Shown: positions 7,679 to 30,000 of the stretch, in pieces | How positions within the stretch are numbered: the first letter of the stretch is position 1 | How the letters are laid out: every line of letters starts with the position of its first letter | Assembly: GCA_018398765.1 (NCBI GenBank) | Contig: JAHBMJ010000207.1 | Location: 1-30,000 of the forward strand | Source of the DNA: Chromera velia | Taxonomy: Eukaryota > Sar > Chromeraceae | Direction of reading: 5' to 3' | DNA length: 30,000 nt | The notes under the pieces: generated by a model | The model's input: the letters and a program-made list of their open reading frames with translations, nothing else | Databases searched by the model: none | What the model was told of the DNA's origin: nothing | Program-made: the position numbers and the translations under genes

Positions 7679-7691
7679 CTTATATATATAA

Positions 7692-8215
7692 GAGAGAAGG
7701 GAATGGAAGAAGAAGTCTCTGAATGTGAGAGAGAGGGGAGTGGAAGAAGAAGTCTCTGAATATGAAAGAGAGGGGAGTGGAAGAAGAAGTCTCTGAATAT
7801 GAGAGAGAGGGGAGTGGAAGAAGAAGTCTCTGAATATGAGAGAGAAGGAAGTGGAAGAAGAAGTCTCTGAATGTGAGAGAGAGGGGGGTGGAAGAAGAAG
7901 TCTCTGAATATGAGAGAGAAGGGAGTGGAAGAAGAAGTCTCTGAATGTGAGAGAGAGGGGAGTGGAAAAAGAAGTCTCTGAATGTGAGAGAGAAGGGAGT
8001 GGAAGAAGAAGTCTCTGAATATGAAAGAGAGGGGAGTGGAAGAAGAAGTCTCTGAATGTGAAAGAGAAGGGGGTACAAGAAGAAGTCTCTGAATATGAGA
8101 GAAAAGGGAGTGGAAGAAGAAGTCTCTGACTGTGAGAGAAAAGAGAGTGGAAGAAGGAGTCTCTGGATATGAGAGAGAAAGGAGTGGAAGAAGAAGTCTT
8201 TGAATATGAGAGAGA
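7692..8215. repeat. 37-bp purine-rich minisatellite, about 14 copies
   Basis: The 37-bp unit contains AGTGGAAGAAGAAGTCTCTG followed by AATRTGAGAGAGA. Units differ by single substitutions (AATAT or AATGT, GAGA or AAGA). Because 37 is not a multiple of three, any reading frame cycles through three translations. The minus-strand open frame of 132 codons across it is therefore not considered a gene. Confidence 0.95.
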
Positions 8216-8303
8216 AGCAGTAAGAGTGAGTGAAAGACAGAGAGGGGAGGGGGGACAGAAAGCTCCGTATGTGTGTGTCAGGGGGAGGGAGAGAAGAAAG
8301 AAA

Positions 8304-12768: not shown

Positions 12769-13160
12769 GATCCCGACTACTCAGAGTCTACTCTGCAAAG
12801 ACCTAGGAATGTAGACAGGAATTTAGAGGAATTTAAACAGGAATTTAGAGGAATTTAGACAGGATTTTAGAGGAATTTAGACAGAAATCTAAAAGAATTT
12901 AGAGTTCTAAATTCCTAAACTTTGAAGGTCAATTTCTTATGAACTATGATGAGTTAGAACTTGATATTATGATGCTTATAGAAATCGGCCTCTAAAATTT
13001 GCTAAATTCCTCTAAATTCCTGTCTTTAAATTCCTTTAGATTCCTAGCTAAATTCCTCTAAATTCCTCTAATTTTTTGTTTAAATTCCTCTAAATTCCTC
13101 TAAATTCCTGTCTAAATTCCTAAATCTTTGACTCTTTGCAGGGTAATCCTAACTAGGATC
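12769..13160. repeat. Foldback (inverted-repeat) element built of AGGAATTTAG motifs
   Basis: The left arm (about 12769-12910) and the reverse complement of the right arm (about 13000-13160) share the same order of features. These are GATCC near the end, CTGCAAAGA, then AGGAATTTAGACAGG and repeated AGGAATTTAG units with AAACA and GACAG spacers. The roughly 90-bp centre is not repeated. The whole could fold into a hairpin with arms of about 140-160 bp. No transposase is seen, so a MITE-like or foldback origin is an inference. Confidence 0.75.
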
Positions 13161-13659: not shown

Positions 13660-13805
13660 ATAGCTAGGAATTTAAACAGGAATTCTAGCAGGAATTTAAA
13701 AGAATTTAGACAGGAATTTGCCAATTTTAAGGAATTGGACAGAAATTTAGAGGGATTTGGACAAGAATCTAAAAGAATTTAAAAACAGAAATTTAGAGAA
13801 ATTTA
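13660..13805. repeat. Third block of AGGAATTTAG motifs
   Basis: The block has the same orientation as the left arm of the foldback element. It has degenerate units such as AGGAATTTAAACAGG and GACAGGAATTTG and ends near AGAAATTTAGCAAATT. It looks like a solo or diverged arm of the element 500 bp upstream. Confidence 0.65.
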
Positions 13806-18300: not shown

Positions 18301-20243
18301 AAAAGGATGAAATGACAAAGCAAAGAAAGAAGGACAACTTGAAGAGGGGGAGAAGAGAAAAGGAAAGACTAAAGATGAAAGAAAGGCAGCCACGCAGGCA
18401 GCAAGCCAGCGAGACCACACAAGACTTCTCTTCTACAACTCTTTTTCTCTCTTATCTTTTTCTCTTCTTCTGCTTTTTCCTTCCTTTGGTGCAAGCAGAA
18501 AAGCAAAAGAGTCCTGTCAAGAAATGCAAAAAGGGGCGAAAAAACGGAACGAACGAACGAACGACCCAACGAAGGAGTGGACGTAAAAACTAACGAAGAC
18601 TTGAGAAAAAAAGAGAGAAGACGTGATCCAAGGAACCATTCCATCGAATGCATGCACAAGGTCGGACAGGACTCTATTATGAACACATCTTCAGCTCGAG
18701 ACCTCGAATGAGTGTGTCTGTCTGTATGACTGCTGAATTGATTCTGCTTGTCATTTCAAACAATGAGTCAATCAATCGATCTTCCATATAAGAACTCACG
18801 AGAAAGAAGATGAAATATGATGAAACAAATCATGGTACGGACTAAAACCAGTTTGTTTCTGGAGTTTCTTAGACCAAGAAGACATGTGGGAGAGATTTGC
18901 ATGCGGAAAATGAATCGGTCAAAGCAACAACGCGATTGCATGCAAGGTCCTGACAACATGAAGCCATCATACACGCCAGTAGGAATCGGAGAAACGCGCA
19001 ATTCAGAAATCAACGACAGTGACCGCACAACTGGAATCCCGGAGGGTGACTTTGCGCTCTCCACGACCCCTTAAGAGACAAGAAGATCACATGTGTCCAT
19101 CAGATTGAGGGGTCTCCTTCGCGCGAAAAGACACTAAGAAAAGTGAGCAGCCGAAGAAAATGGCGGAAGGAAACGTTCAAAATTTCAGTGACAGCAGTAT
19201 TTGGCTGGCTGACTGTCTGGCTCTTCGATTCCTTGACTTACTTCGTCCTTCCAGATTCGTCCTTGACAACTCCAGCTCTGCACCCCACCCCTCAGCGATG
19301 CACACCACACAAAGACGACAGGGAGGGGCAGAGGAGAGAGGAAGTTCAGACCCACTCCGGCGATTCTACGAGCGATGCAATCTCTTCCCAGGACAGCCCA
19401 ATATGTCATATTAATACTCACTTTCCAAAAAAACTCGCTATAGGTATCTTACTTTACGTCATCTGGCGTTGGTTATTCAACTCCCTACTCTCGCTCGTCT
19501 GCTTCCAACACCTACTTGGCCTTCGTCTCACCATGGCCCTCATCATAATCTTCTCTCGCCACTTCCACACACTATTTCACAACAGTGACACACGGGCTCT
19601 TCTCACTTTTCGTTATGTGCACAGCGTCTCCTCTTTCTGACAGAATGGCCCCGGAGGGCGGAGCGTGGACCGCGGGGGCATGCGGGAACTAATCGCAGAA
19701 ACGCGGGGAAAGTGGCTAAGAAAACTGGTTAAAATTTGGCAAATTTTGAGTTTTTGCGTGGCAGATTTTGAGTTTTTGAAAAATTTTTGAGTTTCGCTGA
19801 GAAAAATTCGCTCGAGATCTTTGGACTCAGCTGCGAGCGGAGCGAGCGGCTCTGTATATAGCTGTCTTTCATATTCGGAATTCACCTCAAAAATCCGTGA
19901 AACATCTTGAAACAACACACACTATATGATATATATTGATATATACTTCGTCGAGCACCTTTCGAATCTTGGACAATCTTGGACACAGTCGGTCGACCGA
20001 GCAGTAACTGCACAAAAATCCCCTTTGAATCCTGCAACATCGATATCTTGTGGGCTGTCCGCTATCTGGTGCCATGCCGCCCGGCCGAGAAATGAGGGAT
20101 CTTCGTTGTGAATGACCTCGTATCCGTCTGCCGTCTCTTTCTGTCCCCCCGTGGGCAGATAGGTGAAGTTTCACCTGCCTCTTTCTCCTTCCCCCTTCTT
20201 CTTCTCTCGGCCTACACGAGAGAGAGAGGAAGAGAAAGAAGGG

Positions 20244-23056
20244 ATGGCAGAACCAGATCCCGACTCCGAGACTCGACCGAAAGGTGTGAAGGGGGAGGAA
20301 GAAGAACAGGTGGCGGAGAAGGACGGAACATCAGCAGCAGCAACAGCAGCTCCAGGTTGCAGCCCTTTAAGTGAAGATGGCAAGGGAAAGAAGAAGAAGA
20401 AATTTGAGCGTGTCCATCTGGACAGCATCACTTTTTTTCGTTACGCGGGATCGGTGTTCATCCTTGCCTACCACTGCTTCCGGAATGAGAGTCCTCTTTG
20501 GCGCCCTCTTTGGCAGTGGGCGAACGTGTGGCTCTGTTTCTTCTTCGTATTAAGTGGTTTCGTTCTTGCCTTCACCTCCATCACCTCCACCTCTCTGCCC
20601 CCCACAGGCCGCCCCTCCCTCCTCAAATATCTTCTCCACAGGCTGAGCGGGATCTACCCCCTCTACCTACTAGTCCTTGTCATCTGCCTTCCCTCCTTTC
20701 AACAGGGCGCAAATTCGTTCGGGGGATGGACCGTAGGATGCGGGTGGAACGACCCTCTATCTACCCAGATAGCACAGAGCTACTGGAGGAATGGTATGAA
20801 CCCGGTCCAAGTCGGACCCCTGGTCCTGGAGTGCCAAGCCGCCCGTTTGAGTTTCCACGTGGCCCTTCTTCAGGGCTTCGTCCCTCACTTCGTGTACGGC
20901 TCCGATCCGCCAGACGTTCTGAACGCTCTGCAACAAGCGAAGAAGAAAAGAAAAGAGGGAGATGGAGGAAAGAAGGTGAAGGACACGAAAAGGAAAGACG
21001 GAGATAAGGGAGGGAAGGTGGTTGGTACGAAAAAGAGAGAGGGAGATGCAGCACAGAAGGTAGAAGAGACGCAACAGAAGGAAGAAAGAGGCAACTCAGA
21101 AAATCGTGTAGAGAGGGAGGGAAGAAAAAGACAAAAAAAGTCACGCACCCACCACCACCGCCACCATCACCACCATCACAGAAGCAAAGCCGCCCAAGGC
21201 CAACGGACAGATGCCAACTCCGTCTCTGCCCATACTCTCCTTGCTGAGAACTCAAAAGAAGACAGAAAGAGCAAAGGGGTCTCACTCTTATCTTTTTCGA
21301 TTCACGAGGAAGAGAGCGGAGAGGGTACCCAAGAGTCCAATACGACAGCCAGTGCCCACAGCAGCAGCAGCGGAAGGATGGGCATATTGATGGATTGGGG
21401 GCAAAGTGAGGGTGAGGTTGAGGAAGAGGACGGAGACGTGGTTGTGCCCCAACCCCCTCTGACTCCCTTCGGTCGTGTCACGAACATTCCGGGTGTCACT
21501 CTCCCTCCAGCAGGCGGTGGGGGGGGGCATGTGAAGACAAATTCCCACAAGGCGTGGTACGTCCGTTTCGGTTCAGGGGTATTGAAAATGATCCGAAACT
21601 TTGTACATGGATTGTGGGCATTGGGATGCACCCGCCCTGTCCCCCTCTGGTTTGTTTCGGCGCTGTTTATTTATTGGATCCTTTTCTGGGTTCTGCTCCC
21701 GGTTGTGCGGTCTGATAAGCTCCTTCCCCTTTCCGTGTGTGTTGTGGGTATGTTTCTGTGTGGGGTGGGTGTAACGGTTGGAATAACCTATTTCTCTGTG
21801 TGGTGGTTTCAGACCTTCAAGTCATTTGATGGGACGTGCCATCATGGTTTGTCAGTGAGTGTGATTGGGCACATTCATGAATTTCTTTTTGGTATTTTTG
21901 TTGGTCGTTTCTTCATTTTGACTGCCTTTGACGAAGAAGGAAGATTTCTCTTCGGAGAGGGCAGGGTGGAGAGGGGGGGAGAGCCTGTTGCGTCCACTGA
22001 ACAGGGAGGGGGGGCGAAGACGAGATTTGGCTTTGGTGTGTCCTCACTTGCTGATTTGGTCAAATGGAGAAGAAGGGACCGGAGAAAGGAGGAGAAAGAG
22101 ACGGGAGAGAAAGGGGAAGGAGGGGAGACAGAGAGTGAGAAAGACGATGCGAAGAGTGCGTCTCGTGATGACTCTCCGTCTTCCTCTCAAAAGTCCTTTG
22201 TGACTAGAGGGGGTTGCAGTGGTGAAGTCACACGGACAGTCACGGAGGTCGACTCGACCCCTAGTCTCCCCCAGACCGCAACAGCCACATCTGTAGAGGC
22301 TGCAGAGGGCAGTGAGGGGGTCGTGGCGGAGGCGAAGAAAGGGCAGGAGGAACGAGAGAGTCGAAAGAAAGGAGCATCACTTCTTTGGGTGCTCCCCCTC
22401 TATCATTGGGGGGTGTTTCTGAGTCTCTCTGCCTTTGTCTTCCTAGTGGTATGCTTCCCCGAACCGAAGGGAGTTGTGCAACACACCCTAGCGTCAAATG
22501 GGGGGGCGATACTTCCAGTCACTCTTCTGATCCTGGGCCTGTCGTGTGGACAGGACGCGATCTCGAAATTCGCAAAGAGGCCTGAGTGTCTCTTTCTGGG
22601 GTCTCTCGCGCTGGGTCAGTCGGTGGTTGATGTTGATTTGTTCATTTGTCATAGTGATACGCATGTTTCACTTGACTCGTTTCATGGATTACACAGCCTC
22701 CTGCACGTCAATGCCTCACGCACCCTTTGGTTGGGCTCTCACTTGGAACCCATGCACAACACAAATCTCAACAAACGTGTGTGTGCGCAATGAATGGCCC
22801 ATGTGTCAATGGACCTGTATACGCGATACAAATTTCTTTCTTTGCAGGTCAGTACCTCTTGCACCCGCTGGCCCTTCACGCGGTGTGTCTGCTCTCCGGT
22901 ACAGCCAGACTGCCCGACGCCTTCCATTTGTTGAACCCGACAGTCAGCGAGCCCATCCTCCTGGGCGTCTCCGGGGCTCTGGCGTGGGCCGCGAATCGGG
23001 TGGTGGTGGACCCGTGCACGGCCGCCATTCAGAGACGCGTACGTCAAATGAAATGA
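20244..23056 (+). CDS. Acyltransferase-3 (OafA/YrhL-like) family membrane protein, two exons
   Basis: Exon 1 is 20244-22614 and exon 2 is 22848-23056, giving 859 residues. AT3 proteins are multi-pass membrane enzymes that move acyl groups onto sugars, lipids or other acceptors; the substrate here is unknown. Family landmarks are LDSITFFRYAG...YHCF (59-78, with candidate catalytic His77), WLCFFFVLSGF (96-106), HRLSGIYPLYLL (132-143), PLWFVSALFIYWILF (467-481), HIHEFLFGIFVGR (543-555) and, across the splice, LFLGSLALGQYLLHPLALH (783-801). The usual acidic residue after the WS.S motif is absent. Two long hydrophilic insertions break the domain. Residues about 232-430 are Lys/Glu-rich with a His tract at 303-312 and an acidic stretch, and about 563-712 are charged. 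The N-terminal 55 residues are charged and probably cytosolic. The start is the first ATG in a frame open from 20163. The splice (donor GTCAGT, acceptor TTTGCAG) is in frame and restores the C-terminal family segment. Confidence 0.82.
22615..22847 (+). other. Intron of the acyltransferase gene
   Basis: The intron is 233 bp with a GTCAGT donor and a CTTTCTTTGCAG acceptor. GGTCAGT occurs at both borders (22614-22620 and 22847-22853), so several cut positions give the same mRNA. Reading on into the intron gives a frame that stops at about 22791-22793 and loses the C-terminal membrane segments. Confidence 0.75.
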
Positions 23057-25655
23057 GCTCGTGGGTGTGTGCGTGCTGTCAGGTGTCTGGTTGCCCTGTT
23101 TGTGAAAGGGAGCCAGAAGAAACTGTGTCCGTGTGTATCCCGGACAGTCTCATAACTGTCGCCGGGAGTACTGGACGGTGCATGGGAGGGGGGCTGGGGT
23201 TCACATGAGGGGGGAAGGACAGTGTGAGTTGCTGGTTGACCAGTTGATTGCTTCAGTGGGCATTGGCTCCTCCTCAAATTCGTTGGTTGTAGGGAAATGC
23301 ACGCGCAGCAGTAGTGCAGATGATCAAAAGGGCCTGCCTGGCTTGCAGGCCTCCGCAATTATGTGCTTCGAATTCAGAGCATATGCACGCGTCTGCCGGC
23401 TTGCCTGGCCCTGATCGACTTGCTCATCATCAGCAGCTCATGTGAATCATCATATGTCAATTTATATTATGTATAGTATTATGTAGCATAGATCAATGTC
23501 AGATAGAGTCTTTAAACGCAAAAAAGTCTATATGTTAAACTAGAAGTTAAACAGTTAACTTAAACTTCAATTTATGTGATATGACAAGGTATACTGTATA
23601 CACGTGTACAATATTTAACAATATTATATATCGATCCGATCAGTAGAGCATCACTGGTAATTGTATACTAAAATTTTATAACAAGAATTATCTTAACTTT
23701 TGAAGGTATACTCAGAAAAATAATACTCTAGGATAGAAAAAAATTTCCATAAGTGATAAGTGATTTAATATTATTGGTGCCCTTCAGCACTGTCGCCATT
23801 TTGTTTTGTGGAGGTGGCCTCCGCAAACGGCAGGGAGGTGTGCCCTATCGCTAAGGCTCAGACCATACCCCGTGACCGGCCAAGATATAGTGATAGTCAT
23901 TCTTCAAGGTCCAATACCAAATATCGGTTTACACTGTGACTAATTATAAGTTATCTCAACTGGTTTAATAGGATATAAGTTTGAATTTATATTCCAGATT
24001 AGATTCTAGATGAATGAATGAATGAATGAATGAATGAATGAATGAATGAATGATTGAGGGTTAAATCCTAGATCCAGCGATGCTAGACCCCAAGCCACTA
24101 ACAAGGCTTTGAAGACAACCCCATCTCATGCTACGTGTTATGAATATTTATTTTTTAAATCGTATTTTATACAATTAATTGATTTTCAGGGTATCTACTA
24201 CTGACAATGATTTTATTTGCATGCCTAGGGTTGGAAAACTAAGCAAACTTATTTAATGTGTTAGGTCACATACAGTATATACAACGACCTTTTTCCAACT
24301 TGTTTATAACAGTTTTTGAAGTCACTATAAGTCACTATGCCTGCACTGCAAGTAATGCCGCGCAAATCCACCCGACATCTTTTTTCTTCCGGGCCTTTCG
24401 CCCTGGCTGCCTTCATATTTGATACCAGCCGCATCCATCCGCATCCGATTTTTTTGGCTATACATCGAGTGCAACACAAATTCCGAGCGACATGCATATG
24501 CACATTCTCTGAAAAAGGCAATTTAAACGTGAATGAGTAGAAATGAGAATCGGCAAGGTGCATAGATGGGAACATCAAGAGGAGCGGAACAGAAACAGCG
24601 GAAACATTCGGGAGCAAGAATGAAGGGGAAACACCCCAAGCGCTGCAGGACACGGGAAGACTTTTTGAGGGGAACAATCGAACCAATGACAGAAAGAAGA
24701 ATCAGGGGGGAGCGAAAGAACGGAACTTTGATTTCGTTTTCCTCAGGCAGCTACCTGAAGTTCCTTTAGACACAAAACTCTCTCCTTCTGCATTACGGCA
24801 TCGTTCCGTCTCTGTTCGTCTGTCCACCCATCCACTTCTCTCTTCCCTCTTTCCTTCTCTCTTCTTAAATCAGCCTTCACCTACTCAGCTCCCCGGCGAC
24901 TCGGACAGTCGCAGATGCAAAGGGGAAGAGATCATAGAATGCAAACAAAGAAACAAACGAAGATGAGCAGAGGTGCAACACAAGCAAAGGCACACGAGCT
25001 CTCTCTCTTTCTCATTCATCACGACTGCCGACCGGCACCAGCAGATGCATCTATCTCTGACGCCAACCCACCACTCGGCCCTCCCCTATGCAACACTCTC
25101 CTCACTCACGCCACTTGCCAAGAGAGACTACAGAATTCCTCCACACGGTCAAGCCCCTTCCTCTTCACCTAGCTGTCGGCTCATTCGTCCCCATATTTGG
25201 TGCATGCACGTACAGACGAACGCTTTCACCTGCGTGTCCCTTTCGTCTACCAAACAAGCAATCATCACACTCGCGTCTACCAGTCTCACCATCGGTCCAA
25301 CAAGCAAAGAGAAAGCATGGAAGACAACGAGAGAGAGGAATTCGTACAACGCGCGCAAAAGCAGATCACTCATTCGAACAAAAAATGTACAAGACCAAGA
25401 AGAAAGAAAGAGGCAAAAAGGAAAGAGAAGCAGGGCAGAAATGAAGAAGAATACGCCACCAATAAAACGAACTAGAAAAGGACCGTCAGATGGAAAGAAA
25501 AAGGATTCGAGGACGAACACAAAAACAAGAAATCGGAAACAAATCGAAGGAGGGAAGGACGCGAAGGCATGCTGCTGGCTGCGGGAGAAGAGAAAATTGT
25601 CAGACAGACTACCAGGAAGGCAATCGTAGGCAGACACAAAGCAATTCGAAATCGA
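23057..25655. other. Intergenic stretch, AT-rich, no recognisable gene
   Basis: About 23430-24300 is strongly AT-rich and has a GAAT microsatellite. Short overlapping frames at 24260-24770 and 24900-25650 show no known motif and no consistent splicing. The right part adjoins the 3' end of the minus-strand CBM20 gene and may include its 3' untranslated region. Confidence 0.55.
24009..24053. repeat. GAAT microsatellite
   Basis: About 11 tandem TGAA units. Confidence 0.95.
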
Positions 25656-27779
25656 TCAATGAGGAAGGGAAGAGACCTGCTTGCACTCCTGACACCGTCG
25701 ACGCTCTCTTCGATGAACACAGAAGCCCCCCCCTCCGCAGTCCTTGCAGTAGTAGCGCTCCCGACCGTGCTCACAAATACTCTTCCCTCCGCACTCCTTG
25801 CACTGAGAGTGCCTGCGACCGTGCTCGCAGATGCTTTTCCCTCCACACTCCTTGCATCGACAGCGCTGTCGGCCATGCTCGCATATGCTCGTCCCTCCAC
25901 AATCCTTACACTGATGTCGCTGCCTGCCGTGCTCACAAATACTCTTCCCACCACATTCGTTGCACTTAGAGCGCTCCCGGCCGTGCTCACAAATACTCTT
26001 CCCCCCACACTCCTTGCACTGACAGCGCCGTCGGCCGTGCTCACAAATGCTCCCCCCTCCGCACTCCTTGCACTGACTGCGAATGCGACCGTGCTCACAA
26101 ACACTCTTCCCTCCGCAGTCCTTGCATCGACAGCGCTGTCGGCCATGCTCGCATATGCTCGTCCCTCCACAATCCTTACACTGATGTCGCTGCCTGCCGT
26201 GCTCACAAATCCTCTCCCCGCCACATTCGTTGCACTTAGAGCGCTCCCGGCCGTGCTCACAAATACTCTTCCCCCCACACTCCTTGCACTGACAGCGCCG
26301 TCGGCCGTGCTCACAAATGCTCCCCCCTCCGCACTCCTTGCACTGAGAGCGCTTCCGACCGTGCTCACATACGCTCTTCCCTCCGCACTCTTTGCACTCA
26401 GAGCGCTGCCGACCGTGCTCACACACGCTCTTCCCTCCGCACTCTTTGCATTGAGAGCGCCTGCGACCGTGTTCACAGATGCTTTTTCCTCCACACTCTT
26501 TGCATTGAGAGCGCCTGCGACCGTGTTCACAGATGCTTTTTCCTCCACACTCTTTGCATTCAGAGCGCCTGCGACCGTGCTCACAGATGCTCTTCCCACC
26601 ACAATCCTTGCACCTGCAGCGAACCCGTCCATGCAAGCAGAGAATCTTGCCATGCCGGTTTCTCTTCACCTCTCCTCCCTCTTCCCCTCGACGATCATTC
26701 TCAGACACGACCACTTTCCATCCAGCGATCGGACCACCCCTCCCTCTACACATCTCAGAAGAGAGAAGGGCGGAGTCCGAAAGAGAAACAGTCAACCGAC
26801 GCTGCTTCTCTCCCCCCATGCAACCCGTCCCCCTCCCCTCCCTCCCCTTTCCCCACAACCCACCCCCCCTCCTCTCACCGGGACAGCCAGACACCTCATC
26901 ACACTCGTCAGCCTCTACCTGAGCGAGGTCACTCCCTGAGCGACGACGCTTCACGCCAAATGTTGAGCCGTCCGCATGCCGTCGCTCCTCTTTCTCCACT
27001 TTGGTGGATGGGAGAGGGGGGCGTTGAAGAACTTTTTGCTCTGAGGAAGTGGCACGGGAGACAGCCGACTGGATGTTTGAGGTGTCATGACTATCTGAAT
27101 AATCGATTGGTTTTACGATTCTGGAATTCGTTTGGGTCCTCCCCTCTGAGGAATGCGGACACGCAATCTGTGACGGGCGGGCAGACAGGTCATCATGCTC
27201 ATATTCTCTGCGTGGGTTTTCCGTCTGTCTATTCGTGGGCTGAGGGAGAAGAGCGAGCTGCACACTCTCAGGGACCCCCCATTCCACCGAAATTCCAACC
27301 ATCTCTGCCTGCTGCTCTCCTCCCCTCTCTGCACCGACATGGATTGTGTTGACACCCCTCTTTCCGACCGAAGAGCGGTCAGAAAGAGGAGGCGCACTAA
27401 CGAGACGCACGATACGGAAGTCTCCCCCCCTCAGCGGCTCAAGACACATGAGGTTGCCAGGGTCAGAAACCTTAACCTCTTCGCCATCGTTTGGAATCGC
27501 AAGCAGTCGAAACTTCAACTCTGACACCCCCATCCCCCCACCCTCTCCCCCCGCCCCCACCCCATTCACGAAATCTCCAGAGACACCCATAGGGGACTCT
27601 AGGAGATTCACCTCCACCTCACTCGACACCCACCACGGACGCCCACACGGTGCAGGGGCGAGAGACAACGCACCACCCAATTCCCACCCACCCAGCTCAG
27701 GACATTCTCCCACCACGACGACTCGTTGATTCTCTCGCACCTCCGGGCAATGTGCAATAAAGGCGATGAACCCCTTCAT
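25656..27779 (-). CDS. CBM20-like protein with 18 tandem CEHGR...CKECGG repeats
   Basis: A single open frame encodes 707 residues. Residues about 3-127 resemble a CBM20 starch-binding domain: a first strand FIAFIAH, QRVVVVGECPELGGWE (18-33, with the conserved LG.W), a W-W pair at 49-50, ELKFRLLAI (87-95, the EYKY-like strand) and EPLRGGDFRIVRL (114-126, the WE..NR-like end). A Gly-rich insertion sits at about 65-86. Known CBM20 domains bind starch or glycogen. Residues 128-377 are polar and probably disordered, with basic KRRR near 280. Residues about 378-701 are 18 units of 18 residues following C-x-H-G-R-x(4)-C-x(2)-C-G-G, with Cys/His spacing suited to binding a metal such as zinc. The last unit is degenerate (CVHRRERRRCQEC). 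The ATG at 27779 is the first after an in-frame TAG about 30 bases upstream. Similar repeats occur in uncharacterised algal and protist proteins; their function is unknown to me. Confidence 0.85.
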   Translation of the reverse strand: MKGFIAFIAHCPEVRENQRVVVVGECPELGGWELGGALSLAPAPCGRPWWVSSEVEVNLLESPMGVSGDFVNGVGAGGEGGGMGVSELKFRLLAIPNDGEEVKVSDPGNLMCLEPLRGGDFRIVRLVSAPPLSDRSSVGKRGVNTIHVGAERGGEQQAEMVGISVEWGVPESVQLALLPQPTNRQTENPRREYEHDDLSARPSQIACPHSSEGRTQTNSRIVKPIDYSDSHDTSNIQSAVSRATSSEQKVLQRPPLPSTKVEKEERRHADGSTFGVKRRRSGSDLAQVEADECDEVSGCPGERRGGGLWGKGREGRGTGCMGGEKQRRLTVSLSDSALLSSEMCRGRGGPIAGWKVVVSENDRRGEEGGEVKRNRHGKILCLHGRVRCRCKDCGGKSICEHGRRRSECKECGGKSICEHGRRRSQCKECGGKSICEHGRRRSQCKECGGKSVCEHGRQRSECKECGGKSVCEHGRKRSQCKECGGGSICEHGRRRCQCKECGGKSICEHGRERSKCNECGGERICEHGRQRHQCKDCGGTSICEHGRQRCRCKDCGGKSVCEHGRIRSQCKECGGGSICEHGRRRCQCKECGGKSICEHGRERSKCNECGGKSICEHGRQRHQCKDCGGTSICEHGRQRCRCKECGGKSICEHGRRHSQCKECGGKSICEHGRERYYCKDCGGGGFCVHRRERRRCQECKQVSSLPH
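25677..26648 (-). repeat. 54-bp coding repeat array, 18 units
   Basis: Each 54-bp unit encodes 18 residues of the CEHGR...CKECGG type. Units 6-10 and 11-15 form a second-level duplication of five units (270 bp). The same stretch beginning GTCCCTCCACAATCC occurs at 25891 and 26161. The unit length is a multiple of three, so frames on the opposite strand also stay open. Confidence 0.95.
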
Positions 27780-29261
27780 CGTACCAATGCAGACAGGTAG
27801 ACGGTTTTCCTATCAGGAAATGAGTGTCAAGAAGGAACAAGGCTTCCTGCGGCCTCGTTTGATTTGACGATCAGCTGCACAGGTTCGCAGACTCACAAGC
27901 TTGAGAAAGCCTTATACGCAATCAAAACAGTTGCAAAGAAGGAAAATTATGAAATTCATGCCAAAGGATAGAGCAGGAGAGAACAGACTCACCAGGGGTG
28001 CCTCGATCAAATTCAACCCGAAGGAAGGCGACAGCCCGATCACCGACTGTTGGCAGCAGGACAAGCAGATGGACCGACGACAAAAAATGTCAGACTTCTG
28101 ACTCTCTTCTATGTACTCGATCTAGAATAAAGCACGAGGAATCATGCACCGTCGCAGGAAGTGTCGATAGACGTATGGCCAAAGCAGTTTGCGATCGATC
28201 TGCCGGCCTGCTGTCTCGCCGTCTGACGGTGCTCAATTCTCAGTCTGAATCTCAGACGGTCTCTCTGATTCTTTGTGCTTCGAAATGATTCTTCAAGGAA
28301 CCACTCACGACTCCTTCGAGATCGATCTGCGGCATGGAACCGGACTCTGATTGTACTTTGATCCGAGGATTGTTGGAAGATGTTATATATATATGTAATT
28401 GGAAGACAGAAAAGCCAGGATTCAATTGTAAGCCTGGAAGCCATATATATATATATATATATATATAGGTCAAACGATGTCAAACGGACGTACCATGGAC
28501 GTACCGTATAACGTTGAATCCGCGGGCCGCGCGATATTTCGCGATGCCATTGCAAGCCGTCTCTGTTGTCGGAGATTGTTGGAGGTCTCTGCTTGAAACT
28601 GAAGTTGTGCGATGTTGTGCGAGAGTTTGATAATTGAGTTCCTGTCTGAAGGAGTTTGCTTCATTGTTGAGCAGGTTCAAGCAGTCAGACTGGATTGCTT
28701 GCGAGAGCCTTGTGCAGAAAGACCAAGCAAGGCAGCTTCAATGGATGGCTTGAACGCCTTGTTCTTTCTTCGTAACACTTGCAGACTTCGTTCCATGCAC
28801 TCCTTTGCGATCCGTGGCTTTCTCGTTGATTGAAGTTTTCGAGAAACGGGCCTTTGATCTCTACGGTCCAGAACATCGAATTGCTTTTAGAGCTCTTGCA
28901 TGATCAGTCCCTGTCTGCCTGCCATCGATTGAACGGGAGATCGAAGACGGTCACTTGTGCGCGAGTGGATCGCTCAGCTGCTCTTCGCCTTCATCCGCTT
29001 CTGGTACGGCCGTCTTGAGGTCTTTTGTTGTGTGTCCCTTGTGACACGCTCAATTGTCGTCCACTCAAACGGATCAAATCAAGTCAGTAAGAAACTTTGA
29101 GGGAGACGCGCGCAATGACTTTGTTGCTCGAGCTCTGCGTTGTAACGTTCACTCTTTGTCACAGGAAGGTTGATGCAGATGCGCGATTCGACTTGTTTGT
29201 TGATGTGCGCGCAGATATCACTTTTGTGTTTGCCCTACAACGGATCTGATTCACTGTCAAG
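27780..29261. promoter_or_regulatory. Shared intergenic region of the divergent CBM20 gene pair
   Basis: The 1482 bp between the two outward-facing start codons must hold both 5' untranslated regions and any promoters. It contains a TA run at 28443-28467, another short TA run near 28384-28394, and a direct repeat of GGACGTACC near 28486-28504. No core promoter motif is clear, and the small frames here show no domain. Confidence 0.4.
28443..28467. repeat. TA dinucleotide microsatellite
   Basis: About 12 continuous TA units between the divergent CBM20 genes. Confidence 0.95.
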
Positions 29262-30000
29262 ATGATAGAGGCGGAGACGGGCGTTGTGCTTTTTGCTTGT
29301 TCGGGAGTGGAGCCTCGGGAGGGACAGACGCTGGTGGTTGTCGGGAGCAGCTCTGAGCTCGGAGGGTGGGATGCGAGTCGCGGTATCACCCTCCATCGAG
29401 TGAAGAACCCTGCCTTCCCAGGTGTGTGGATGTCCTTTCCGATGTGTCACAGTGCGTGCTCTGAAGTCCGATTTCAGTTTGCCCTTGTTGGACCAGTTGC
29501 CGACACTCTTCAATCAATGACGTCTGACAACGGTGGATTGGTGGTAGACGGTGTCAAAACGTCTTCTGCCGTCTCCTCAGCCCTCTCAGCAGCCCCTATA
29601 GACGGTCGAAATCAGGACTGTTGTGGGTGCGTGTGTGAGCCTTTGGGGTGTGGGCCGCGGGAAGTGGAGGTCGTCGGTGGTGGGCATGCGTTGTTTGGTG
29701 GGCGTTGGGGAAATGGGGAGACACGGGTGACTCCGTTGAGATTGGAAGACATGGTGTTAGCGCAGCAGCAACTCGAACAGGAATATCCTGCCTCTGTCTC
29801 TTCAGAGTTGGACAGTGAGAGAGACAGGGAGGGGGGCAGGGGGGAAATTAGGAGGGAGGGAAACTTTGGGGGTCCGGCTGCAGACGACCTGATAGTCGAT
29901 GAGACCTCCCTCTCTGCTGCCTCAGTTGTCCGTTCAGTGACTGGACAATCTCAAACTGCCTTCACCCCTCGCAGAAGCACAGTGACAGAACGGCAGGGTG
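29262..30000 (+). CDS. Second CBM20-like protein, 3' end beyond the window
   Basis: A frame from ATG at 29262 stays open to the window edge (246 codons). The ATG is the first after an in-frame TGA at 29247-29249. Residues about 7-75 parallel the CBM20-like domain of the divergent neighbour: VVLFACSGVEPREGQ, then TLVVVGSSSELGGWD (22-36, with the conserved LGGW), a VWM segment, and EVRFQFALVG (the EYKY-like strand). Known CBM20 domains bind starch or glycogen. After the domain come a Ser/Ala-rich stretch, a Cys cluster (CCGCVCEPLGC) and a polar, probably disordered region, as in the neighbour's linker. Whether the protein also ends in Cys/His repeats cannot be seen. The arrangement suggests an inverted duplication. 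An intron within the visible part is possible, but none is required. Confidence 0.7.
   Translation, partial: MIEAETGVVLFACSGVEPREGQTLVVVGSSSELGGWDASRGITLHRVKNPAFPGVWMSFPMCHSACSEVRFQFALVGPVADTLQSMTSDNGGLVVDGVKTSSAVSSALSAAPIDGRNQDCCGCVCEPLGCGPREVEVVGGGHALFGGRWGNGETRVTPLRLEDMVLAQQQLEQEYPASVSSELDSERDREGGRGEIRREGNFGGPAADDLIVDETSLSAASVVRSVTGQSQTAFTPRRSTVTERQG

Follow-up and report, generated by a model that had tools for sequence, protein, structure and literature searches.

A CBM20-like domain joined to a tandem Cys/His array in a paired gene family of Chromera velia: candidate nuclear nucleic-acid-binding proteins

Tandem arrays of cysteine and histidine units are known from several protein systems. 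In the C2H2 zinc finger the ligands are spaced as C-x2-4-C-x12-H-x3-5-H, and arrays of the KRAB zinc-finger and PRDM9 type combine tandem metal-binding units and a conserved framework with a few fast-changing recognition positions and expansion within a lineage. Another spacing, C-x4-C-x16-C-x2-H, is found in the EsV-1-7 repeat proteins of brown algae and their viruses. Here we describe a gene (gene A) and its predicted protein, P0001, in a stretch of 30,000 nucleotides from Chromera velia, referred to below as the window (assembly GCA_018398765.1, contig JAHBMJ010000207.1, positions 1 to 30,000), in which a CBM20-like N-terminal domain is joined to 18 units of the form C-x-H-x6-C-x2-C. A second CBM20 gene (gene B) lies head-to-head with gene A and was overlooked in the original prediction made for this DNA.

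The spacing in P0001 differs from that of C2H2 zinc fingers in 18 of 18 units, and no Pfam zinc-finger family was matched. The A/B family resembles the KRAB and PRDM9-type arrays in its tandem units, fixed framework, few fast positions and expansion in a single lineage, whereas its unit is not C2H2 but 18 amino acids (aa) of C-x-H-x6-C-x2-C, and neither a KRAB nor a SET domain is present. As for EsV-1-7, Cys/His repeats occur in an alga and in algal viruses and are expanded in the alga, although the 18-aa unit is spaced differently from the EsV-1-7 motif, and the array matches no Pfam or NCBIfam family. Compared with the CBM20 domains of laforin and glucoamylase, A and B share the N-terminal half, including the VVGxxxELGxW core and one more conserved Trp, which is W50 in A, but A has Leu for the Trp of the WEP motif, no enzyme is attached, the domain is fused to a zinc-type array, and the loci number about 90. 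The unit itself is shared with array-type HNH/endonuclease-VII nucleases of viral contigs, predicted pithovirus proteins and this genome, namely the 18-aa length, the framework CxHGRxRxxCKxCGG and the variable positions, with a similar N-cap in one viral locus (L125); P0001 differs from them in having no nuclease domain behind the array.

Our preferred reading, which we hold with middling confidence and which is drawn from sequence comparison, is that the P0001 family may consist of nuclear nucleic-acid-binding proteins with a fast-evolving recognition array, a CBM20-derived interaction domain and paired expression from a divergent promoter region. CBM20 domains, HNH nucleases and zinc-type arrays are known kinds, while the way they are combined, the family size and the layout in pairs appear to be new to the literature searched. 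No published description was found among the top-ranked matches, judged from titles and the openings of abstracts, with subscription journals mostly outside the scope of the search.

Gene A and its Cys/His array

On the minus strand a frame is open across 717 codons (25656-27809), and the ATG at 27779 gives the 707-aa P0001. The annotated features of the two genes are the following.

25656..27779, minus strand: gene A (P0001), a single open frame of 707 aa plus stop, with 48 A-type loci in the same genome
27390..27779, minus strand: CBM20-like N-terminal domain, residues 1-130, with the Pfam match at residues 12-52 (27624-27746)
26673..27389, minus strand: linker, faster evolving, no Pfam match
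26940..26951, minus strand: KRRR motif in the linker, residues 277-280, nuclear-localisation-like by sequence
26640..26672, minus strand: array N-cap EVKRNRHGKIL (residues 370-380); to the eye it looks similar to the beginning of the array in viral locus L125
25683..26639, minus strand: array of 18 units C-x-H-x6-C-x2-C, each 18 aa or 54 bp, residues 381-699, by exact pattern and Tandem Repeats Finder
27780..29261, no strand: divergent stretch of 1,482 bp between the A and B start codons, the layout of 33/33 A/B pairs
29262..30000, plus strand: start of gene B, CBM20-like domain and linker, leaving the window; PF00686 at 30.0 bits, above the cut-off

The unit spacing is exactly 18 aa throughout all 18 units, and each of 2000 residue shuffles of P0001 contained at most one unit of the pattern. 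Tandem Repeats Finder reported periods of 54 and 270 in the array. Units 2-17 have a mean identity of 78% in DNA and 77% in protein, with differences per site of 0.151, 0.117 and 0.400 at the first, second and third codon position respectively. The excess at the third position indicates that the frame is translated and selected, where the original prediction had named an untranslated array as the finding that would speak against it, and together with the shuffles it rules out a chance repeat or an untranslated minisatellite. The prediction of eighteen near-perfect units was found to hold for the exact pattern in all eighteen, but near-perfect describes the inner sixteen only, as the first and last units are divergent caps. 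Its description of a basic tandem array with metal-ligand spacing agrees with the exact pattern and with the 78 Lys and Arg against 41 Asp and Glu counted from the first unit onward. The absence of an enzyme domain was likewise borne out, as Pfam and NCBIfam family scans of P0001 returned no enzyme or nuclease family, CBM20 being the sole Pfam family; the segment 26664-27389 gave no family in the Pfam scan, and the protein ends eight residues past the last array Cys. Motifs of the KR-x-R type were found in the linkers of 15 of 17 A/B proteins, besides the one in the array cap, and 11 of these are KRRR (counts made without a background control); such linker motifs hint at the nucleus.

The framework of the unit was taken from 417 units in the window and 19 fetched stretches. 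With C1, H3, C10 and C13 fixed in the search expression and G4 or R5 required of every unit, it consists of C1, H3, G4, R5, R7, C10, K11, C13, G14 and G15. Rates were obtained from 35 arrays of at least three units (2805 unit pairs) as amino-acid-changing differences (pN) relative to the overall silent differences (pS), and these ratios are rough because the silent differences are near saturation (pS 0.53). The ratio is 1.13, 0.79 and 1.04 at positions 6, 8 and 9, falls to 0.69, 0.52 and 0.38 at positions 16-18, and lies between 0.11 and 0.33 at positions 2, 4, 5, 7, 11, 12, 14 and 15. The nuclease-linked arrays and the viral arrays (57 units each) likewise vary most at positions 6, 8 and 9, together with 16.

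No half unit was observed at either end in 48 of 56 arrays, a count in which one could not show up where a stop or the edge of a stretch truncates the array, and the remaining eight appear by eye to be broken or degenerate at an end. Whole units at the array ends suggest that the ligands probably pair within one unit, with one metal site per unit. The A and B arrays mostly have a common N-cap, EVKRNRHGxILC, and a common C-cap, CVHRxxRRxCxECKxxSSLP, and the array of viral locus L125 starts with KVRDKWGHILC. Between 5 and 21 units were counted in the 17 A/B proteins examined, at least five being required for entry. The 72 potential Cys/His ligands of the P0001 array (18 units of four) would also suit a metallothionein-like protein that buffers metal, an explanation we regard as very improbable, since the fixed framework of the unit includes G, R and K as well as the ligands, three of its positions vary, and relatives of the array are linked to nucleases.

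The variable positions also bear on an explanation by analogy, in which the hypervariable arrays would bind proteins or other ligands as receptors for self/non-self or pathogen recognition. Fungal allorecognition uses repeat receptors. The family is large and dispersed, the rate of change at positions 6 and 9 is close to that of silent sites, and the genes nearest to the window gene (L010, L016, L017 and L028, with 88-92% identity over the A head) have strings of residues 6, 8 and 9 that differ by eye. However, no further domain was found in P0001, the array is common to nuclease-like genes, and it is basic; this explanation seems to us unlikely, in much the same degree as that of a starch scaffold discussed below.

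The CBM20-like head and the head-to-head pairs

The curated cut-off of Pfam family PF00686 (CBM_20) is 23.3 bits. P0001 scored 19.5 bits as a whole protein, 23.0 bits on residues 1-130, and rose from 22.8 to 23.3 bits with neighbours, so the profile check of the CBM20 assignment gave a match just under the cut-off and borderline for this copy. The match is also partial and becomes clearer in relatives. Among the A loci 25 of 48 matched at E<=0.01, 20 of these at or above 23.3 bits, and among the B loci 36 of 41 did so, all 36 at or above 23.3 bits. Descent from CBM20 was supported by profile-profile comparison with five CBM20s from the same genome, which B matched at 97.3% (E=1.8e-11) and A at 74.7% (E=2.6e-5); A matched B at 91.5% (E=8.6e-7). 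The best matches in the PDB were weak: the A profile found laforin (E=0.025 over 26 residues) and the B profile glucoamylase 1ac0 (E=0.007). AlphaFold gave no confident fold for the A head from two sequences only (pLDDT 32.7).

Binding site 1 of CBM20 has two conserved Trp residues, whose roles are taken from Aspergillus glucoamylase. The first is invariant in A (13 of 13 rows), whereas the position of the second, that of the WEP motif, is occupied by Leu in 14 of 14 A proteins, so that A does not carry both site-1 Trp. The second Trp is kept in 7 of 8 B rows, the window copy of B having Cys, and is present in all five aligned same-genome CBM20 rows (of eight loci fetched). Among 14 A genes (91 pairs) the median dN/dS over residues 1-60 is 0.29, and among 7 B genes (21 pairs) it is 0.39 over residues 1-85; further along the proteins it rises to 0.48-0.80, with 0.48-0.65 in A residues 96-240, which places the CBM20 part under purifying selection.

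These observations cut both ways for the role put forward in the original prediction, namely that of a starch-associated scaffold in which CBM20 would tether the protein to storage glucan and the array would recruit a partner. The CBM20 descent of both heads, the Trp kept in most B rows and the purifying selection on the CBM20 half are in its favor. On the other hand, Leu at the second Trp throughout A, with Cys in the window B, makes the glucan link doubtful and a clear glucan-binding role is not sustained; in addition the KRRR-type linker motifs hint at the nucleus, and the array accompanies nuclease-like domains in other genes. We consider the scaffold unlikely. Selection thus maintains the head, although the A version may not be a glucan binder.

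The genome searched comprises 177.8 Mb in 4040 contigs, in which P0001 has at least 118 matches (63 of 809 candidates scored). The 62 matches to A residues 1-240 gave 48 A loci after eight second pieces were joined and six divergent CBM20s excluded, and the 48 matches to the B head gave 41 B loci (three joined, four excluded); some loci are broken by stops or are fragments. A B locus was found inside 6 kb of 33 of the 48 A loci, and all 33 pairs are head-to-head, leaving 15 A and 8 B loci unpaired. The distance between the 5' ends of the matches has a median of 1607 bp and lies at 1428-1785 bp in 31 of the 33 pairs, the two outliers being 2354 and 2876 bp. As the next 5000 bases of the contig after the window are N, the array of the window gene B is out of sight; five B relatives in a single open frame have 7-21 units each. 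From this layout we infer that the region between the A and B starts may serve as a shared promoter. A published analysis of Chromera and Vitrella describes closely spaced genes (<1000 bp) as head-to-head above expectation (PMC4501334), and its main text contains neither the term "CBM" nor "zinc finger".

The pairs do not count as independent events, as they probably arose through the copying of a pair. The stretch between A and B has long DNA matches in seven other loci (including C1188, C917 and C2386) and short, weak ones in six more. The downstream flank of gene A is common over more than 150 bases to C2386 alone, as far as window 24221, and the end of this homology (window 24221 against C2386:62743) marks a copy boundary between the window pair and the C2386 pair. 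In the three comparisons inspected the homology past gene A ends at about 0.9, 1.3 and 1.5 kb. Copying of this kind could also be that of a mobile element, with the A/B pair spreading as a unit as its cargo or part, perhaps aided by array-nuclease genes and with no function for the cell. The 33 dispersed head-to-head pairs, the several broken copies and 127 genome matches to the array-linked nuclease domain fit this picture, whereas the single shared downstream flank, the limited matches of the inter-gene stretch, the differing ends of homology and the purifying selection on the CBM20 half do not, and we consider it decidedly unlikely. A simple transposon is unsupported, as most flanks are unshared and the homology ends differ (no search for terminal repeats or target-site duplications was made).

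Sharing of the triplet at positions 6, 8 and 9 between the arrays of the two strands of one locus is 0.12, compared with 0.06 across loci (permutation 0.0014, 11 loci, broken pieces pooled).

PF00686 has 87 matches genome-wide, 25 of them in A loci, 36 in B loci and 26 elsewhere. CBM20-array genes beyond A and B were found in three of the four other PF00686 loci fetched (L133, L134 and L135, with 8, 22 and 13 units). That CBM20 is always accompanied by an array was refuted by the fourth, L132, where a 770-aa CBM20 frame occurs without an array. L134 (C3079:1401-4200) is a divergent CBM20 gene in which the 22 units form two separate arrays with a Pro-rich linker between them containing a KRRRRR stretch. 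In L029 (C413) a strong CBM20 (75.6 bits) is followed by repeats that resemble ankyrin by eye.

Nuclease-like partners of the array and its proposed role

Five array loci were fetched for having no matched A or B head (L037-L041). The arrays of L038, L039 and L041, with 16, 18 and 23 units, run into a domain with the motif HVDHIVP...LQPMWS, which is matched by the endonuclease VII model PHROG_1035 (L038 E=1e-8, L039 5.2e-5, L041 4e-10). The 127 genome matches mentioned above are to this endonuclease-VII/HNH-like domain, and an array was read in L038, L039 and L041 only. Many of these matches (e.g. C3703, C442 and C1327) neighbour each other about 1.2-1.5 kb apart with an equal open-frame length, which probably reflects two domains in one gene.

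A DNA-pattern scan of viral contigs yielded ten stretches with the unit pattern, two of them from one contig, and all ten encode 3-7 units followed by a further domain. Nine viral array proteins were scanned, and seven of them are matched by PHROG nuclease models (E<=2.1e-4). For L124-L127 and L129 the model is HNH and its match follows the array, overlapping in L125 the last nine array residues; in L122 and L128 an endonuclease VII match spans the array, after which comes a match to phrog_28061 (function unknown), a model that also matches L041. By eye alone, L123 and L131 look nuclease-like. With a 4-unit AlphaFold model of the array, matches to five predicted viral proteins were obtained at E<=0.001. 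One, from Pithovirus LCPAC404, is named 'Endonuclease' (E=3.9e-8, 56% identity), and another, from Pithovirus LCPAC304 (71% identity), bears the name DnaJ central domain protein; the rest are unnamed. Compared with the A/B units those of viruses have N more often than G at position 4, and the A/B arrays (5-21 units) are mostly longer than the viral ones. Two protein-pattern scans of viral contigs and one of prokaryote genomes gave no array; the looser DNA pattern, applied to viral contigs only with prokaryote genomes outside its scope, later found the viral arrays, so the earlier negative scans reflect a limit of the method. Plasmid and phage tblastn matches (21-38%) were taken as composition and not as relatives. 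A viral relative of the B head was not found.

Nuclease-like domains are the commonest recognisable partner of the array outside the A/B family, which makes nucleic acid its likeliest target. The partner suggested in the original prediction, nucleic acid, is thus probable as far as the occurrence of the C-x-H-x6-C-x2-C array in nuclease-type genes can indicate, and the A/B arrays were possibly drawn from such genes. In the mechanism that we propose, each unit would fold round one metal ion, probably zinc, through its own C1, H3, C10 and C13, and the array would bind nucleic acid, with positions 6, 8 and 9 determining what is recognised. The same module would steer the nuclease in HNH/endonuclease-VII-type proteins, while the A/B family lacks the nuclease and its CBM20 may act as an interaction or tethering domain. 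The A and B proteins would be produced together under a single divergent promoter region and would have related targets. We infer zinc, the target, the nuclear location and the co-expression of the two proteins from the features described.

Several observations weigh against this proposal. No DNA- or RNA-binding fold was recognised in the array by family, PDB sequence or PDB fold searches: six of eight weak PDB sequence matches are eS27 zinc ribbons (best E=0.0049), and the fold search with the array model returned a single match at E=9.2, which amounts to none. Only one of five 4-unit AlphaFold models was confident (pLDDT 82.6 against 49-55), for which reason the model is used as support only. 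Pfam recognises no nuclease in L038, L039 and L041, and the arrays of L037 and L040 lack both a nuclease and CBM20 within the stretches read, so the array is not a module of nucleases only. No frame with two units was found in any of 80 viral loci that encode nuclease-domain relatives (all scanned for units, the nuclease frame being recognised by motif in 57), single units being limited to an exact one in L044 and a relaxed one in L062; the nuclease does not need the array, and a constant association of the two is ruled out. Position 8 changes below the silent rate, silent sites are already near saturation, the sharing of triplets within loci could be due to gene conversion, and the linker motif count has no background control.

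A bolder form of the proposal, which we offer as tentative and rather doubtful, is that the 18-aa unit would be a new modular nucleic-acid reader with one zinc per unit and residues 6, 8 and 9 doing the reading. It would guide HNH/endonuclease-VII nucleases in giant viruses and in the alga, and the alga would have repurposed it as about 90 nuclease-free readers, mostly in head-to-head pairs, with a turnover as quick as that of PRDM9 and KRAB zinc fingers, perhaps policing nuclease genes, transposons or viruses with matching sites. If the array does read DNA or RNA, it would constitute a compact modular recognition system with three variable residues, outside C2H2 fingers, TALEs and PUF proteins. 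Its natural repertoire (the 417 units in 20 stretches) would make the recognition code directly testable. Nucleases of the giant-virus type and a gene family of an alga would then have exchanged a recognition module, and the CBM20 domain would have acquired a new nuclear use.

Other features of the window and genome

An acyltransferase 3 gene (PF01757, 37.3 bits) is located at window 20238-22793 on the plus strand, on the far side of gene A. Two tandem repeats were observed, the first at 825-1630 with about 18 copies of a 45-bp unit (94% matches), several open frames and flanking GAAA runs, and the second at 7686-8217 with 14 copies of a 37-bp unit and several open minus-strand frames. Runs of AGGAATTTAGA and their reverse complement form inverted repeats at 12796-13130 and 13661-13798, with arms of up to 66 nt at 77% and 43 nt at 93%. 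The genome contains 58 light-harvesting (PF00504) matches, which mark it as algal; no match to PsaA/PsaB was upheld. Finally, a dispersed repeat of about 130 bp and SINE-like size at 23749-23885 has more than 35 genome matches at 79-87% identity among the 40 of 849 candidates scored.

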